This document shows, in pieces, positions 27,690 through 39,756 of a stretch of DNA of 64,000 nucleotides; position 1 is the stretch's first letter; each line of letters starts with the position of its first letter. The stretch comes from Thermoactinomyces vulgaris (GTDB lineage: Bacteria; Bacillota; Bacilli; Thermoactinomycetales; Thermoactinomycetaceae): contig NZ_REFP01000014.1 of assembly GCF_003688725.1 (NCBI RefSeq), positions 1 to 64,000 on the forward strand. Reading direction: 5' to 3'. The notes beneath the pieces are model-generated. The model had not been told where the DNA came from and did not search any database. It was given only the letters and a program-made list of their open reading frames with translations. Made by a program: the position numbers and the translations under genes.

Positions 27690-27763
27690 TGGAGCGGGTG
27701 AAGGGAATCGAACCCTCGCATTCGGCTTGGAAGGCCGATGTTCTACCACTGAACTACACCCGC
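27690..27763 (-). tRNA. tRNA-Gly (TCC)
   Basis: Complete cloverleaf with encoded CCA. Anticodon TCC in loop CTTCCAA; T-loop GGTTCGATTCC. Last tRNA of the twelve-gene cluster in the direction of transcription. Confidence 0.95.
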
Positions 27764-27774
27764 AAATATAAAAA

Positions 27775-27851
<77 letters not shown>

Positions 27852-27869
27852 ATATAAGAATTCTTTGCT

Positions 27870-27956
27870 TGGTGCGGTCGGCGAGACTCGAACTCGCACG
27901 GCCAAAGGGCCACTACCCCCTCAAGATAGCGTGTCTGCCAATTCCACCACGACCGC
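27870..27956 (-). tRNA. tRNA-Leu (GAG)
   Basis: 87 bases with a long variable arm (class II) and encoded CCA; anticodon GAG in loop TTGAGGG. Confidence 0.9.
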
Positions 27957-27968
27957 CCGGTTGACGTT

Positions 27969-28053
27969 TGGTGCGGGTGGAGGGAGTTGAACCCCCACGC
28001 CCGAAGGCGCTAGAACCTAAATCTAGTGCGTCTGCCAATTCCGCCACACCCGC
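27969..28053 (-). tRNA. tRNA-Leu (TAG)
   Basis: 85 bases with a long variable arm and CCA; anticodon stem CTAGA/TCTAG around TTTAGGT gives TAG. Confidence 0.93.
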
Positions 28054-28167
28054 ATGACTGCTATTACGCACTGTCAGCTCTCATATCGACAAAAAACAGA
28101 ATAACATGCTTTCGGGATAAAGTCAATAGAAAATTTATTTTTTATCGCATGTCCATTCATCATGAAA

Positions 28168-28198
28168 GCCTCCTCAGTGAAAACCCCACCAAGGAGGC
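28168..28198 (-). terminator. Hairpin between tRNA-Lys and tRNA-Leu
   Basis: GCCTCCT/AGGAGGC stem with a 17-base loop inside the 154-base gap between two tRNA genes. Only a short T stretch follows, so it may be a partial terminator or a processing signal. Confidence 0.4.
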
Positions 28199-28207
28199 CA
28201 AACACTG

Positions 28208-28283
28208 TGGTGAGCCATGAAGGACTCGAACCTTCGACACCCTGATTAAAAGTCAGGTGCTCTACCAACTGAGCTAATGGCTC
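28208..28283 (-). tRNA. tRNA-Lys (TTT)
   Basis: 76 bases with CCA; loop CTTTTAA gives anticodon TTT. Confidence 0.95.
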
Positions 28284-28293
28284 AAATTTGAAA

Positions 28294-28368
28294 TGGCTGG
28301 GGAAGCAGGATTCGAACCTGCGCATCACGGAGTCAAAGTCCGTTGCCTTACCGCTTGGCTATTCCCCA
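28294..28368 (-). tRNA. tRNA-Gln (TTG)
   Basis: 75 bases with CCA; acceptor TGGGGAA, anticodon stem around TTTGACT gives TTG. Confidence 0.94.
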
Positions 28369-28372
28369 TCAA

Positions 28373-28449
28373 TGGGGCGACCGGTGGGAATCGAACCCAC
28401 GAATGCCGGAGCCACAATCCGGTGCGTTAACCACTTCGCCACGGCCGCC
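28373..28449 (-). tRNA. tRNA-His (GTG)
   Basis: Anticodon stem CCGGA/TCCGG around TTGTGGC gives GTG. The extra 5' G (position -1) opposite C typical of tRNA-His is encoded, as is CCA. Confidence 0.94.
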
Positions 28450-28460
28450 ACGCATAAAAT

Positions 28461-28537
28461 TGGCGGAGCTGACGGGATTCGAACCCGCGATCTCCTGCGT
28501 GACAGGCAGGCATGTTAGGCCTCTACACCACAGCTCC
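28461..28537 (-). tRNA. tRNA-Asp (GTC)
   Basis: 77 bases with CCA; stem CCTGC/GCAGG around CTGTCAC gives GTC. Confidence 0.95.
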
Positions 28538-28554
28538 GCATCATCATATTGAAA

Positions 28555-28630
28555 TGGTGGACGCTGACGGGATCGAACCGCCGACCCTCTGCTTGTAAGG
28601 CAGATGCTCTCCCAGCTGAGCTAAGCGTCC
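28555..28630 (-). tRNA. tRNA-Val (TAC)
   Basis: 76 bases with CCA; loop CTTACAA gives TAC. Confidence 0.95.
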
Positions 28631-28634
28631 GTTT

Positions 28635-28711
28635 TGGTGACCCGTAGGGGATTCGAACCCCTGCATGCCAGCGTGAAAGGCTGGTGTGTTAAACCGCTTC
28701 ACCAACGGGCC
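28635..28711 (-). tRNA. tRNA-Glu (TTC)
   Basis: 77 bases with CCA; stem CCAGC/GCTGG around CTTTCAC gives TTC. Confidence 0.95.
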
Positions 28712-28718
28712 ACGTGAA

Positions 28719-28812
28719 TGGCGGAGAGAGAGGGATTCGAACCCTCGCGGGGCCAGTAAGACCCCCTAACGGTTTAGCAAACCGTCCTCTTCAGCCACTT
28801 GAGTATCTCTCC
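28719..28812 (-). tRNA. tRNA-Ser (GCT)
   Basis: 94 bases, class II with long variable arm and CCA; stem ACGGT/ACCGT around TTGCTAA gives GCT. Confidence 0.95.
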
Positions 28813-28815
28813 GCG

Positions 28816-28890
28816 TGGCTCCTCAGGCAGGACTCGAACCTGCAACCTACCGGTTAACAGCCGGGCGCTCTACCATTGAGCTACTGAGGA
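28816..28890 (-). tRNA. tRNA-Asn (GTT)
   Basis: 75 bases with CCA; loop CTGTTAA gives GTT. The outermost pair of the anticodon stem is a C-T mismatch. First tRNA in the direction of transcription. Confidence 0.92.
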
Positions 28891-35087: not shown

Positions 35088-36062
35088 TTATTCTTTTGAA
35101 GCGCTGTAATCGTTAAAATAAGCGACATTGTCCGAAGCCGTGTCTCCGGAAGATTTTCTCCGGTTGGCATGGAACCAGAGTTTATCCCCGTTGGCAATTC
35201 CGACCCCCTCAATCTCGAAAAGATCCGGATATTGACCGGACGTGATGCGGAAAGACAGATCATCATCGGCATGGATCGTGCCGGAAGCCGTGGAGATATT
35301 CCGGTAAACGAGGATGATGCTGACGTTCTTGTATTTTTCCACCGTATTGCCAGTCAAAGGGAAATATAATGTATTGTTGTAATAACCGATTCCCTGAGTG
35401 GCGAATTCCGTGATTTCTGTAGGGACGGGCTGATGATTGACCAACGCATCTTTAATATTTATTTGAAAAGCCTTGGTCACGTTGATCGTGCCGCTGGTTG
35501 CATTCAAAGGAAGTGAACCCCGGTAAAAAGTGGTTCCGGATTTAAAGAGAAAGTGGATGTTGTCGGCATCTTTTCCGGTGATCGCCACTCCCGACATCGC
35601 TTTATTTTCGCCATTGTATTTGATGGTGTAGTTTCCGGCTTTATAATACTTCGTCCCTTCATACTTCAGTTTCACCAGACTCATACTGCCGGCTTTCATG
35701 GTGACAACAAACATATAATAATTTCCGTTGTTGCTGTGAAGGGCAATGTCATTGGCGTGGCCAAGGTAGTTTGCATAAGTGGTTCCGTTATCCCCGTTCG
35801 TCATGAGTGTCGTGGTTCCGTCACTCATTCTCGTCCGGTAAATCACCGCCTTGGTTTCATCATTGTTGATTTTGATGGAATAGGTGTAAGTCGATCCCAC
35901 GGCAAATCCTTGCGCGGCGTAACAACTGTTGGCATTGCCGAGAAGCGAAACGGTGGTATACGTGTTGTAATAAGCAGCCCCGGCCGTGTCCGGAAGCAGG
36001 ATCGAAACGCACAAGGTAATCACCACAAACATCAGAAAACGCTTCATCTTTCCTGTTTTCAT
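35088..36062 (-). CDS. Secreted helveticin-J-like protein
   Basis: A 324-residue exported protein: signal peptide (KMKRFLMFVVITLCVSILLP, cleavage near the AGAA stretch at about residue 30) then an all-beta region. Several motifs align by eye with the class III bacteriocin helveticin J: QGFAVGSTYTYSIKIN, LGHANDIALHSNNGNYYMFVVTMK, QGIGYYNNTLYF and FEIEGVGIANGDKLWFHANR, suggesting the same propeller-like fold. Start is the ATG at 36062 with AAGGGGGG five bases before it. It lies 74 bases after a histidine-kinase gene on the same strand, so its expression may depend on that two-component system. Antibacterial activity is only an inference; other lineages carry such proteins with unknown roles. 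Confidence 0.55.
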   Translation of the reverse strand: MKTGKMKRFLMFVVITLCVSILLPDTAGAAYYNTYTTVSLLGNANSCYAAQGFAVGSTYTYSIKINNDETKAVIYRTRMSDGTTTLMTNGDNGTTYANYLGHANDIALHSNNGNYYMFVVTMKAGSMSLVKLKYEGTKYYKAGNYTIKYNGENKAMSGVAITGKDADNIHFLFKSGTTFYRGSLPLNATSGTINVTKAFQINIKDALVNHQPVPTEITEFATQGIGYYNNTLYFPLTGNTVEKYKNVSIILVYRNISTASGTIHADDDLSFRITSGQYPDLFEIEGVGIANGDKLWFHANRRKSSGDTASDNVAYFNDYSASKE

Positions 36063-36136
36063 AAAGACCCCCCTTATGAATAATATTCTATGCATTTCTC
36101 TAATTCCTCTTTATATTCAAAATAAACAAACGATAT

Positions 36137-37567
36137 TTACTCTGCAGGAAGACGAATATGAAACCGGATCATCCCCTCCCTTTGACAGGCTTGAATCGTT
36201 CCTTGATGCATTTCCACAATCCGCTTCACGATTGCCAACCCCAATCCCGATCCGCCTTTGGACCTGGAGGGATCCCCCGTGACAAACATCCCGAACAGTT
36301 GTTGAAACGTGTCCGGATCGACCGGTTCAGCCGGATTCCCGATTTCGATCACCGCTTTCTTTTCTTGTTGATGTGTCATGATTTCCAAAAACCCCGGCCT
36401 CTTTGCATAGCGAACGGCATTTTGAATGAGATTGTCAAACAACCGCACCATCAAAAGCGGATCTCCTTTGACTCGCAGTTCCCCGTTGCATAACATCTTT
36501 TTTATTTCCAAGTCATTCTGCTCCCTCAACATGAATGATTCTTCCAATAACTGTTCCAACAAAGTATTTAAGGATATGGTTTCTTTTTGGATTTGGATTT
36601 GATCATGCGTCAACCTGGCATAATCAAACAAGTCATCGATCATTTGTTTCATCTTTTCAGCTTTTGAAAGGGCGATCTTAACAGATGAAACCAATTCTTC
36701 TTTTTTCATGTCTGAATGGTCCTGCACGAATCTCAAATAGCCGATGACAGAAGTCAGAGGAGTCCGAAGGTCATGGGAAATGCCGGTGATGAGTCCGGTG
36801 CGTTCCCGCTCCGCTTTTTGTTCTTGCTCCCGGTTTTTTTCCAATTGTTCCGCCATCCGGTTCACATGAACCGCCATCGAGGCAATTTCATCCCGTCCCG
36901 TCTCTTGCAAACGACAGCTGAAGTTCCCTGCTGCAATCTCATTCATTCCTTGAACAACCATTTTTATCTGCTTTAATTTCTTATTTGTCAGAAGGAAATA
37001 AACCATGATGAAGATAAGAACAGCGGTAAGCGACGTCAGGACAGAATTAACTCTTTGATAAGCCCCGGTGACCGGACGATCCTTCTTGCCGGCAATAAAA
37101 TAAACATCCTTATTCTTTAACGAAAAAGGGTACAATGCAACAATTTCTCTTGATCCCGAGTCATGACGGACGGCTTCTTCTTGTCGGGCCATCTTCATCT
37201 GTATTTGATAAAGATCCACTTTGGTTTCCGAAACATTTCCCGAATGATAAAGAACATCCCCTTCCTTGCTTACAATCATCAGCTTCATGCCTGTTTTTTT
37301 CATTTGCCGGTTTAAGGAATGATTGATTTCATCCGGTTGCATTTGTTGAATGACGGGAGCCAAACCTTTGATTCTTTGTTGTAATCCAAAGTTAGACGGA
37401 TAAGTATAATAGGGTTCAGTCGTATAAAAAATATATTTTGTGAATCCAAATGAAAGCCATGCACAAACCGCGCTTATCAGGACCATCCCGACCATTTGGA
37501 TCCTGAAACTGCCCGCAATCCTTTGGTACAAATATAGAAAAGCTTGAGGGATCCACTTTTTAACCAC
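36137..37567 (-). CDS. Sensor histidine kinase
   Basis: A 476-residue membrane sensor. Helix 1 (about 20-42) and helix 2 (about 170-192) flank a 125-residue extracellular domain; a HAMP region follows. The kinase core has the H-box GISHDLRTPLTSVIGYLRF (about residue 268), the N-box FDNLIQNAVRYA and the G-box GGSGLGLAIVKRI. The GTG at 37567 overlaps the end of the response-regulator gene by 8 bases, so the pair is translationally coupled. Signal unknown; by analogy with similar OmpR-partner kinases, envelope stress is plausible. Confidence 0.87.
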   Translation of the reverse strand: MVKKWIPQAFLYLYQRIAGSFRIQMVGMVLISAVCAWLSFGFTKYIFYTTEPYYTYPSNFGLQQRIKGLAPVIQQMQPDEINHSLNRQMKKTGMKLMIVSKEGDVLYHSGNVSETKVDLYQIQMKMARQEEAVRHDSGSREIVALYPFSLKNKDVYFIAGKKDRPVTGAYQRVNSVLTSLTAVLIFIMVYFLLTNKKLKQIKMVVQGMNEIAAGNFSCRLQETGRDEIASMAVHVNRMAEQLEKNREQEQKAERERTGLITGISHDLRTPLTSVIGYLRFVQDHSDMKKEELVSSVKIALSKAEKMKQMIDDLFDYARLTHDQIQIQKETISLNTLLEQLLEESFMLREQNDLEIKKMLCNGELRVKGDPLLMVRLFDNLIQNAVRYAKRPGFLEIMTHQQEKKAVIEIGNPAEPVDPDTFQQLFGMFVTGDPSRSKGGSGLGLAIVKRIVEMHQGTIQACQREGMIRFHIRLPAE

Positions 37568-38285
37568 GGGAATCCCGGGCCGGTGATGACTGAACTTTAT
37601 AACCAACCCCCCATACTGTTTGAATCACCATTGGCCGTTTGGGATCCAGTTCAACCTTTTCCCGAATCTTTCGAATATGAACCATAATGGTGTTATTGGA
37701 TGTCAACATCGGTTCATTCCATACCCTTTCATAAATTTGTTCAGCGGTAAAAACCACTCCGGGATGGCGGGCCAGCAAAACCAAGATATCAAATTCTCTG
37801 GGGGTGAGCCGGACTTCTTTTTCATTGGCAAAAACTTGTCTTGAAAGCAGATGGATGGTCAGATGCTGAACCGTAATCACATCATCTTGACGGAAACTTT
37901 TCGTATCAAAATGAAGATACCTTCGCAAATGAGCTTTGATCCGGGCCACCAGCTCCAATGGATTGAAAGGTTTGGTCACATAATCGTCGGCCCCGATACT
38001 CAACCCCTGAATTTTATCCAAGTCATTCGTTTTCGCAGTCAGCATGATAATCGGCATCCAGTATTTTTCCCGTATGCGGATACAGGCTTCCAACCCGTCC
38101 ATTTCCGGCATCATCAAGTCCAACACCATTAAGTCAATGGCATGGGAATCGGCCAACTGCAATGCTTCCTTTCCATTGGTCGCCTGTAAAATGCGATATC
38201 CTTCGTTGTGTAAATAAAGTTGCATGAACTGTCGGATTTCTTGATCATCATCGACGAGCAGAATCACCGGTTGATCATTTCTCAT
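37560..38285 (-). CDS. OmpR/PhoB-family response regulator
   Basis: A 241-residue regulator: receiver domain with ILLVDDDQ acidic pair, phospho-acceptor Asp in DLMVLDLMMPEMDG (about residue 55), and Lys in ADDYVTKPFNP; then a winged-helix DNA-binding domain (about 135-235, with LTPREFDILVLLARHPG). The ATG at 38285 lacks a well-spaced ribosome-binding site (AAGGCGG is 13 bases away), and a short upstream frame with a strong site overlaps it, so coupled translation is likely. Pairs with the kinase downstream. Confidence 0.88.
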   Translation of the reverse strand: MRNDQPVILLVDDDQEIRQFMQLYLHNEGYRILQATNGKEALQLADSHAIDLMVLDLMMPEMDGLEACIRIREKYWMPIIMLTAKTNDLDKIQGLSIGADDYVTKPFNPLELVARIKAHLRRYLHFDTKSFRQDDVITVQHLTIHLLSRQVFANEKEVRLTPREFDILVLLARHPGVVFTAEQIYERVWNEPMLTSNNTIMVHIRKIREKVELDPKRPMVIQTVWGVGYKVQSSPARDSRG

Positions 38286-38604: not shown

Positions 38605-39165
38605 TTATTTTGAACATACATAAACAAAACCAGGGGGCAAATTCGCGGGTACAAACCGCACTTCCACTTTTCCGAAACAACTTCTGAGCATTGGCAACAT
38701 GTGCAAAGAATATTGATAAGCCACAAACACCCCGTTACAAGACAATACTTTCTGTATTTCATCCAATATCTTCAAGCAATCTTGTTTGGAAAAATTGGCA
38801 AAAGGCAACGAAGAAACCACACAATCCGCCTCATTCATTCCCTGCAGGCGTAATTCCTGTTTCAGATTTCTTGCATCACAACAGTGAACAAACCTTGGAA
38901 ATTGATTTTTTAAATACCGGCGGAGTTCAGGATCCAGTTCAAAAGTGATCACCCGGCAGGAATGATTCACCCGGTTTGCAATTTCCCGGGTCACAACTCC
39001 GGTTCCCGCTCCCAATTCCAATACCGTTTTGGTTTGGTCCCAATTTACCGGTTTCAACAAGGAATTGACAAGATACTTGGAACTCGGGGTGATACTGCCG
39101 ATGGTTCTTGGCGAAGACATGAATTTCGAGAAAAAAAGGATTCTTTGCATGAGCGATTGCATCAT
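38605..39165 (-). CDS. SAM-dependent methyltransferase, phospholipid N-methyltransferase-like
   Basis: A 186-residue class I methyltransferase. The SAM-binding motif is TVLELGAGTGVVTREIA (about residue 46), followed by an acidic strand (VITFELDPELRRYL) and DCVVSSLPFANFSK. The opening FFSKFMSSPRTIGSITPSSKYL is typical of PmtA-like phospholipid methyltransferases and rRNA-dimethylase relatives. The ATG at 39165 follows AGGGGA. It lies about 220 bases upstream of the two-component genes on the same strand. Substrate not known. Confidence 0.75.
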   Translation of the reverse strand: MMQSLMQRILFFSKFMSSPRTIGSITPSSKYLVNSLLKPVNWDQTKTVLELGAGTGVVTREIANRVNHSCRVITFELDPELRRYLKNQFPRFVHCCDARNLKQELRLQGMNEADCVVSSLPFANFSKQDCLKILDEIQKVLSCNGVFVAYQYSLHMLPMLRSCFGKVEVRFVPANLPPGFVYVCSK

Positions 39166-39756
39166 TTCGCATCCCCTTTTTGTGAATTTGAATACAAGAT
39201 AAATCATGATTCTTAAAATAAATAAAGCTTTTTTCTTATCATTTCCTTAAGAAACATTTTCTTGCGCAAAGCCCCTTCTTCGTCAGCTTGTCCCAACCAA
39301 TCATCTTAATATTCTTAAAAAACGAAGATGAAACGCCTTCGTTCCTTTATGCCGGACAATGTTAAAAAGGGAGAAGCCATTATGAACAGGCAAGTCCCCT
39401 TTTGAAACAGGAGATTGTTCAACTCAGCACATACCAATGATAGCGCATTCATAAATAAAATTTATCATTCCAAAACAAAACTCATAAAAATACAAATCAA
39501 TTAAAAAATCATACGGACTGAAATTCATTTTTCATTCGAACCGGCTCTTTCATAAAACTGCTTTTTTTAAAGACCAAAACAAAGGAAATATGTGGTAAAC
39601 GCTGTGATGCTTATAACTTCTGGTTTTGGAAAACATTAATAAACGGGTTCTCTCGTGCAATCCTTTGCTTGAAAAAGAAAAATTATACAATTAGAAATTA
39701 AGTGTGGAAGAAACCCATGGATGTTTGGTAAACTATTTTATATAAATATTTATTCA
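39166..39756. other. AT-rich intergenic region upstream of glutamate dehydrogenase
   Basis: About 690 bases (to 39853) without a convincing gene, notably more AT-rich than the surroundings. A seven-codon frame with GGGAG upstream begins near 39382 (MNRQVPF) and could be a leader, but nothing supports it further. The palindrome at 39757-39795 is listed separately. Confidence 0.4.

Follow-up and report, generated by a model that had tools for sequence, protein, structure and literature searches.

A secreted, predicted five-bladed propeller protein of Thermoactinomyces vulgaris with remote homology to helveticin J and a candidate sugar pocket

Gene arrangement and features of the secreted protein

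The window analyzed here, 64,000 nucleotides of contig NZ_REFP01000014.1 (assembly GCF_003688725.1) from Thermoactinomyces vulgaris, a soil-type bacterium with a genome of 2.56 Mb, carries on its minus strand a gene for a secreted protein of 324 amino acids (35088..36062, ATG start). We tentatively place this protein, a predicted five-bladed beta-propeller, in a superfamily with helveticin J and phage receptor-binding propellers. The gene follows those of an OmpR/VanR-type response regulator (37560..38285, minus strand, 241 amino acids, ATG start) and a sensor histidine kinase (36137..37567, minus strand, 476 amino acids, GTG start). Regulator and kinase genes overlap by 8 bases, and a gap of 74 bases (36063..36136, minus strand) with the strong ribosome binding site AAGGGGGG separates the kinase from the propeller gene. 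The sequence-only reading had described these three genes as lying in a row, and this arrangement was borne out, with all of them on the same strand. In Pfam searches the regulator matched Response_reg (E 2e-33) and Trans_reg_C (E 1.8e-26), and the kinase HAMP, HisKA and HATPase_c. A receiver plus winged-helix regulator paired with such a kinase has the make-up of an OmpR-type two-component system. VanR and VanS were the best NCBIfam relatives, below all cut-offs. On the minus strand of the 74-base gap, neither terminator-like nor sigma-70-like sites were listed. A search for RNA elements found none, and a repeat search of the propeller gene region gave nothing of note.

That the propeller gene is a real gene follows from 29 loci in other genomes that encode homologues. 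Judged by eye, the N terminus of the protein carries a hydrophobic stretch (mean hydropathy 2.96 at residues 9-22) and an AxA-type cleavage site. The putative signal peptide comprises residues 1-29 (35976..36062, minus strand) with cleavage after AGA, in a region of low model confidence (residues 23-31), and we infer export via the Sec route. The mature protein has a calculated mass of 32.4 kDa and consists of a single domain; proteins of the helveticin J family are characterized as heat-labile antibacterials of more than 30 kDa. In an alignment of 30 family sequences, 62 of 292 mature columns were invariant.

Searches with the window protein gave no Pfam match and only noise below cut-off in NCBIfam; PHROGs and PADLOC returned noise or nothing, and no credible relative was found by sequence search of the PDB. 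The Helveticin_J model PF17312 (positive control: locus L067, E 1.9e-207) did not match above cut-off in the window protein, the host genome or any of the 30 family members. Plain Helveticin_J membership was therefore rejected, as the Pfam model misses all members. The phage propeller model PF21311, which matched its phi11 control with E 1.3e-118, likewise had no match in the window protein or the 30 members. Matches to Pfam TATR in 14 of 30 members (best E 0.003) were dismissed as noise. The family is thus absent from Pfam and NCBIfam, and is an unnamed secreted family within a proposed helveticin/phage-adhesin propeller superfamily.

An AlphaFold (AF2) model of the window protein reached a predicted local distance difference test score (pLDDT) of 89.8 and a predicted template modeling score of 0.84; the model of a member with 49% identity reached a pLDDT of 88.4. 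The window model contains 21 strands of at least three residues, which we read as five blades of a confidently predicted single beta-propeller. The sequence-only reading had proposed structure prediction as a check for such a fold, and at the level of a prediction the propeller appeared.

Relation to helveticin J and phage receptor-binding propellers

Helveticin J (PF17312) is a class III bacteriocin or bacteriolysin of lactobacilli. Its relatives were gathered with PF17312 from Lactobacillaceae (21 of 251 genomes matched) and aligned for 18 of 25 places, leaving out almost identical copies and a few sequences that were short or had a poor reading frame. Comparison of the window-family and helveticin J profiles with hhalign gave a probability of 95.8% (E 6.9e-9, 238 columns). 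When the signal region was cut off, the probability was 93.1% with a score of 57.7, and the alignments spanned 237-238 columns overall. When the columns were shuffled (60 times), this score did not exceed 23.6, and the reversed profile scored 13.8. Addition of a Ruminococcus relative to the window profile gave 92.9% over 248 columns. Moreover, a hidden Markov model (HMM) of the helveticins scored window-family members with up to 31.9 bits and controls with at most 1.6 bits. By these profile comparisons, the window protein is a remote homologue of helveticin J over the whole domain. Of the motif resemblance to helveticin J noted in the sequence-only reading, remote homology at probabilities of 93-96% remains, without a match by PF17312 itself.

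Both families have a length of about 320 amino acids, align over 237-248 columns, include stand-alone genes and display the same order of conserved Q, GH, QG and E-x-E positions, which correspond in the window protein to Q51, GH101-102, QG223-224 and E283/E285. They differ in that the helveticin motif GHxQ has Asn104 in place of its Q in the window protein, that it lacks the R-x-E-A motif which helveticin has in blade 3, and that no signal peptide was seen in the full-length helveticin sequences examined. According to PMC5471241, helveticin homologues of lactobacilli have no ascribed function beyond narrow-spectrum activity.

The receptor-binding protein Gp45 of phage phi11 belongs to PF21311. 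A phage profile was built from seven propellers, six of them from among 40 of 361 phage records plus that of phi11. Helveticin J aligned with it at a probability of 94.7% (E 5.8e-8) over 229 columns, and a merged window and helveticin profile at 96.1%; a GH43 control gave 0.3% with the merged profile. The phage HMM scored the window protein with 14.1 bits, the best window-family member with 19.5 bits and controls with at most 6.4 bits. The five-bladed fold is common to the models and the phage propellers of phi11, 80-alpha and P68 (Z 16.8-17.4). In VIA-align searches of the PDB, the window model matched phi11 with Z 17.0 (root mean square deviation (rmsd) 8.6, 267 residues aligned) and the 80-alpha receptor-binding protein with Z 16.8 (rmsd 4.2, 248 aligned). 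The second model matched 80-alpha with Z 17.4 (rmsd 4.6, 265 aligned), phi11 with Z 16.9 (4.5, 253) and P68 with Z 16.8 (3.9, 251). The platform domain of phi11 Gp45 sits in a trimeric tail protein together with a stem and a tower (PMC4901313), whereas the window protein consists of one secreted domain only. Gp45 binds wall teichoic acid modified with N-acetylglucosamine (GlcNAc; PMC4876445), and several records of phage relatives are named teichoic acid biosynthesis protein C. A link between helveticin and this propeller was not found in the one open-access library searched, where no paper mentions both helveticin and a propeller and where one review of bacteriocins mentions helveticin along with receptor-binding protein.

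In the phi11 structure paper, soaking with GlcNAc had failed, and the sugar was instead modelled into a cavity whose walls include Gln165, Thr211 and Gln330 (PMC4901313). In our alignment these residues take the positions of the xxQ, GGHGT and QG motifs. Their helveticin counterparts Gln14, Gln64 and Gln211 were each present in 18 of 18 sequences. Through helveticin J, three elements of the window protein align with the cavity: Gln51 (35910..35912, minus strand) with Gln165 via Gln14; Asn104 of the GHAND motif (His102-Asp105, 35748..35759, minus strand; H, N and D in 30 of 30 members) with Thr211 via Gln64; and Gln223-Gly224 (35391..35396, minus strand; 30 of 30) with Gln330-Gly331 via Gln211-Gly212. 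Furthermore, Glu283-x-Glu285 (35208..35216, minus strand) aligns with phi11 Glu385/Glu387 via helveticin Glu274/Glu276. Both Glu residues of this pair are conserved without exception in the three families (30, 18 and 7 sequences); the same holds for the His of GH and the Gly of QG. Of 214 aligned column pairs of the helveticin and phage families, 8 are conserved on both sides, a significant coincidence (P 1.7e-5); phi11 Gln165 is missing from these pairs because one of the seven phage sequences has His there. The cavity residues of phi11 thus align with positions that are conserved in each of the three families, which makes a shared pocket a candidate. The distant kinship with helveticin J and the phage propellers suggests cell-wall sugar binding as mode of action.

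From these alignments we tentatively propose, at a chance that we put a little below even, that helveticin J, the phage teichoic-acid propellers and the window family form one five-bladed lectin-like superfamily whose members share a sugar pocket (Q / T-N-Q / Q together with E-x-E), and that bacteria deploy free secreted phage-adhesin domains against competitors or on walls. Several results weigh against reading the window protein as a wall-sugar binder of this kind. Direct hhalign comparison of the window and phage families was negative (0.4% and 1.3%), and the chain runs via helveticin J. That link itself depends on sampling, with a window-helveticin probability of 74% for nine divergent helveticins alone and of 3.7% for nine close ones alone. 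Conserved columns of the window and helveticin families coincided at 13 of 221 pairs, which is not significant (P 0.061) owing to the large share of conserved columns in the window family. At the position of Gln51, 28 of 30 members have Gln and two have Glu. In VIA-align, glutaminyl cyclases and YjiK outranked the phage proteins, and Foldseek gave template modeling scores below 0.5 in nearly all 50 rows, with generic propellers in the top PDB rows.

The structural neighbors also bear on the view that the protein is a secreted enzyme with glycans of walls or plants as substrate and the invariant His102, Asn104-Asp105, Glu283/285 and Asn300-Arg301 as catalytic center. Propeller enzymes (GH43, GH62, glutaminyl cyclase) are common among the neighbors, and the acidic and His residues are invariant. 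Glutaminyl cyclase (PF05096) and the C-terminal domain of YjiK showed the highest structural similarity, with Z up to 19.0 and 19.5, respectively; GH43, GH62 and others ranked below the phage proteins at Z of about 15-16. Profile comparisons argue against an enzyme. The GH43 control (an alignment of 14 of 30 places) gave 0.3-1.5% against the window, helveticin and phage families; its values for the window family were 0.6% and 1.1%, and a GH43 identity was rejected for want of a profile match. The glutaminyl cyclase control (15 of 20 places) showed no convincing sequence relation to the window family (2.9-12%), gave 0.3% against helveticin J and reached 52% over 64 columns against the phage family. 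SGL (PF08450) was dropped as a control after it gave only two loci. The glutaminyl cyclase scores make a deeper kinship among these propellers possible. We regard an enzymatic role as improbable.

Distribution and genomic neighborhood

A scan of genome contigs placed the 29 other loci at 57-74% identity (28 loci) and 48% (one locus). The hosts are mostly Paenibacillus; the others include two Micromonospora, Actinocatenispora, Polycladospora, a Clostridiales, an Opitutia and Dysosmobacter. The protein occurs in 2 of 23 genomes of the window's family and, at full length, in 3 of 42 genomes of the order, where the remaining matches are mainly to a C-terminal extra domain. A phylum-wide sample of 398 genomes yielded a single one, the window's own. 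A relative with 31% identity resides on a Ruminococcus albus plasmid. This plasmid copy (L063:5140-10084) is located between IS200/IS605 genes, TnpB on one side and TnpA on the other, which are a possible transfer vehicle. The protein had no match in the phage records and viral contigs searched, and a reading as phage cargo was rejected on these grounds. In a tree with long branches and an arbitrary root, both Micromonospora proteins grouped with proteins of the window's order (support 97/93), and the G+C content at codon ends of the propeller genes follows that of each host (0.37 to 0.94). Together, this grouping and the host-like composition make it likely that the gene was transferred between phyla, though not recently.

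Three Paenibacillus genomes each contain two separate copies (L006/L015, L019/L028 and L012/L020). At one of these loci (L020:5851-10360), the gene is flanked on both sides by 445-amino-acid open reading frames (ORFs) with the same start that fall into one ORF cluster, an arrangement due either to recombination or to an assembly artefact. Searches of Pfam and NCBIfam gave no accepted match for the Polycladospora homologue. At its C terminus this protein has an additional domain of about 100 residues (L023:8949-9269), which many genomes of the order also encode independently of the propeller (e.g. L035-L045).

The neighborhood of the propeller gene is not conserved. At none of the 29 other loci does a two-component gene adjoin it, the nearest regulator-like ORF being 829 bases away; this count is based on crude gene calls (longest ORFs), with approximate target limits for L027 and L029. 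Neighbor families, listed for 27 of 29 loci as the targets of L027 and L029 are hidden by a longer antisense ORF, recur at no more than four loci. No dedicated immunity or transport gene was among them. A conserved operon was rejected, as the three-locus clusters come mostly from three closely related Paenibacillus sharing one site.

Of the 23 genomes of the family, 11 encode relatives of the kinase, a count that includes the window's own genome. We read the five regions in which kinase and methyltransferase matches lie close together (G014, G015, G018, G019 and G021). All five show the gene order methyltransferase, DedA-type gene, regulator, kinase and lack a propeller gene (L115-L119). Their DedA-type gene encodes a VTT domain, with DedA and UptA as nearest NCBIfam entries below cut-off. 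In the window, methyltransferase, regulator and kinase are retained without the DedA gene, and no convincing DedA remnant was found between methyltransferase and regulator. The lipid N-methyltransferase-like gene (38605..39207, minus strand) is nearest to OlsG and PmtA in NCBIfam, both below cut-off. The system shares its domain make-up with VanR/VanS-like OmpR-type systems; its relatives differ in their genomic partners, the lipid methyltransferase and the DedA gene. Elsewhere in the window, twelve tRNA genes are clustered on the minus strand at 27690-28890.

Since the block of the five relatives lacks the propeller gene, the two-component system appears to be the older of the two, an envelope unit that the propeller gene probably joined later. 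Apart from the adjacency seen here, the regulated unit of two-component system and secreted protein envisaged in the sequence-only reading is thus unsupported. That reading had also seen no obvious immunity gene apart from the methyltransferase. Indeed none was found near the propeller gene; the methyltransferase accompanies the two-component system in the five relatives without a propeller gene, and was therefore rejected as an immunity gene. Whether the propeller gene is a chance neighbor with its own promoter and independent control, which would fit any function, is in our estimate an even question. The 0 of 29 adjacency, the five relatives and the gene's own strong ribosome site speak for it; against it stand the common strand, the short gap of 74 bases and the lack of listed terminator-like or sigma-70-like sites between the genes on that strand. 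As no such site was listed, read-through is possible, and with it co-transcription of kinase and propeller gene.

Proposed function and implications

Taken together, we lean towards the explanation that the protein is a secreted wall-glycan binder encoded by a mobile gene. It would be exported via Sec and fold as one five-bladed beta-propeller, whose central pocket may bind a sugar carried by teichoic acid or a similar glycan polymer of Gram-positive walls, as proposed for the phi11 platform. Bound to the polymer, it could harm neighboring bacteria as helveticins do, or coat or remodel the wall of its producer. The mobile, self-standing gene would have settled behind the kinase of the older two-component system of the envelope, with which it may now be transcribed. 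The gene, its distribution, the predicted fold, the remote homology, the conserved residues and the want of conserved partners come from the analyses above; its export, the binding of a sugar, the target, the effect and co-transcription are deduced parts of this scheme. Two functions had been considered in the sequence-only reading, of which binding to an envelope polymer is the better-supported half compared with antibacterial action.

As a helveticin-type antibacterial, the protein would bind the wall polymer of a competitor and damage its wall and membrane, and a differing wall polymer would spare the producer. The remote homology to helveticin J and the patchy, transferred distribution are consistent with such a role; moreover, Helveticin-M is reported to impair wall and membrane of target cells (review PMC8538875), and one helveticin J homologue is described in PMC4015849 as the product of a lone gene, with no operon around it and no signal peptide. 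The lack of an immunity gene or conserved neighbor, the failure of every member to reach the Helveticin_J cut-off and the very strong conservation noted above, unlike that of an arms-race toxin, leave this role doubtful on its own. Strong conservation and stand-alone genes would equally suit a wall-associated housekeeping protein that binds the producer's own teichoic acid or other polymer and contributes to growth of the mycelium, to sporulation or to turnover of the wall. The teichoic acid biosynthesis names of phage relatives, and the location next to a two-component system that is accompanied in relatives by a lipid methyltransferase and a DedA/UptA-like gene, point in the same direction. 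The presence in so few genomes of the family and the phylum sample shows that the protein is dispensable for most relatives, and we consider housekeeping, too, rather unlikely as the full answer. Antibacterial and self-directed use appear about equally likely, and an enzyme less so.

For the preferred wall-glycan binder, the alignments tie helveticin J and an unnamed family to a phage domain of known receptor, GlcNAc on wall teichoic acid, and name five residues as pocket candidates (Gln51, Asn104, Gln223, Glu283 and Glu285). If the relation holds, helveticin J would recognize a glycopolymer of the wall; its strain range and the absence of a clear immunity gene would then be explained, and the target of a long-known bacteriocin would become directly testable. 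Secreted wall-sugar binders could then also be mined in Paenibacillus, Micromonospora and the relatives of Thermoactinomyces.

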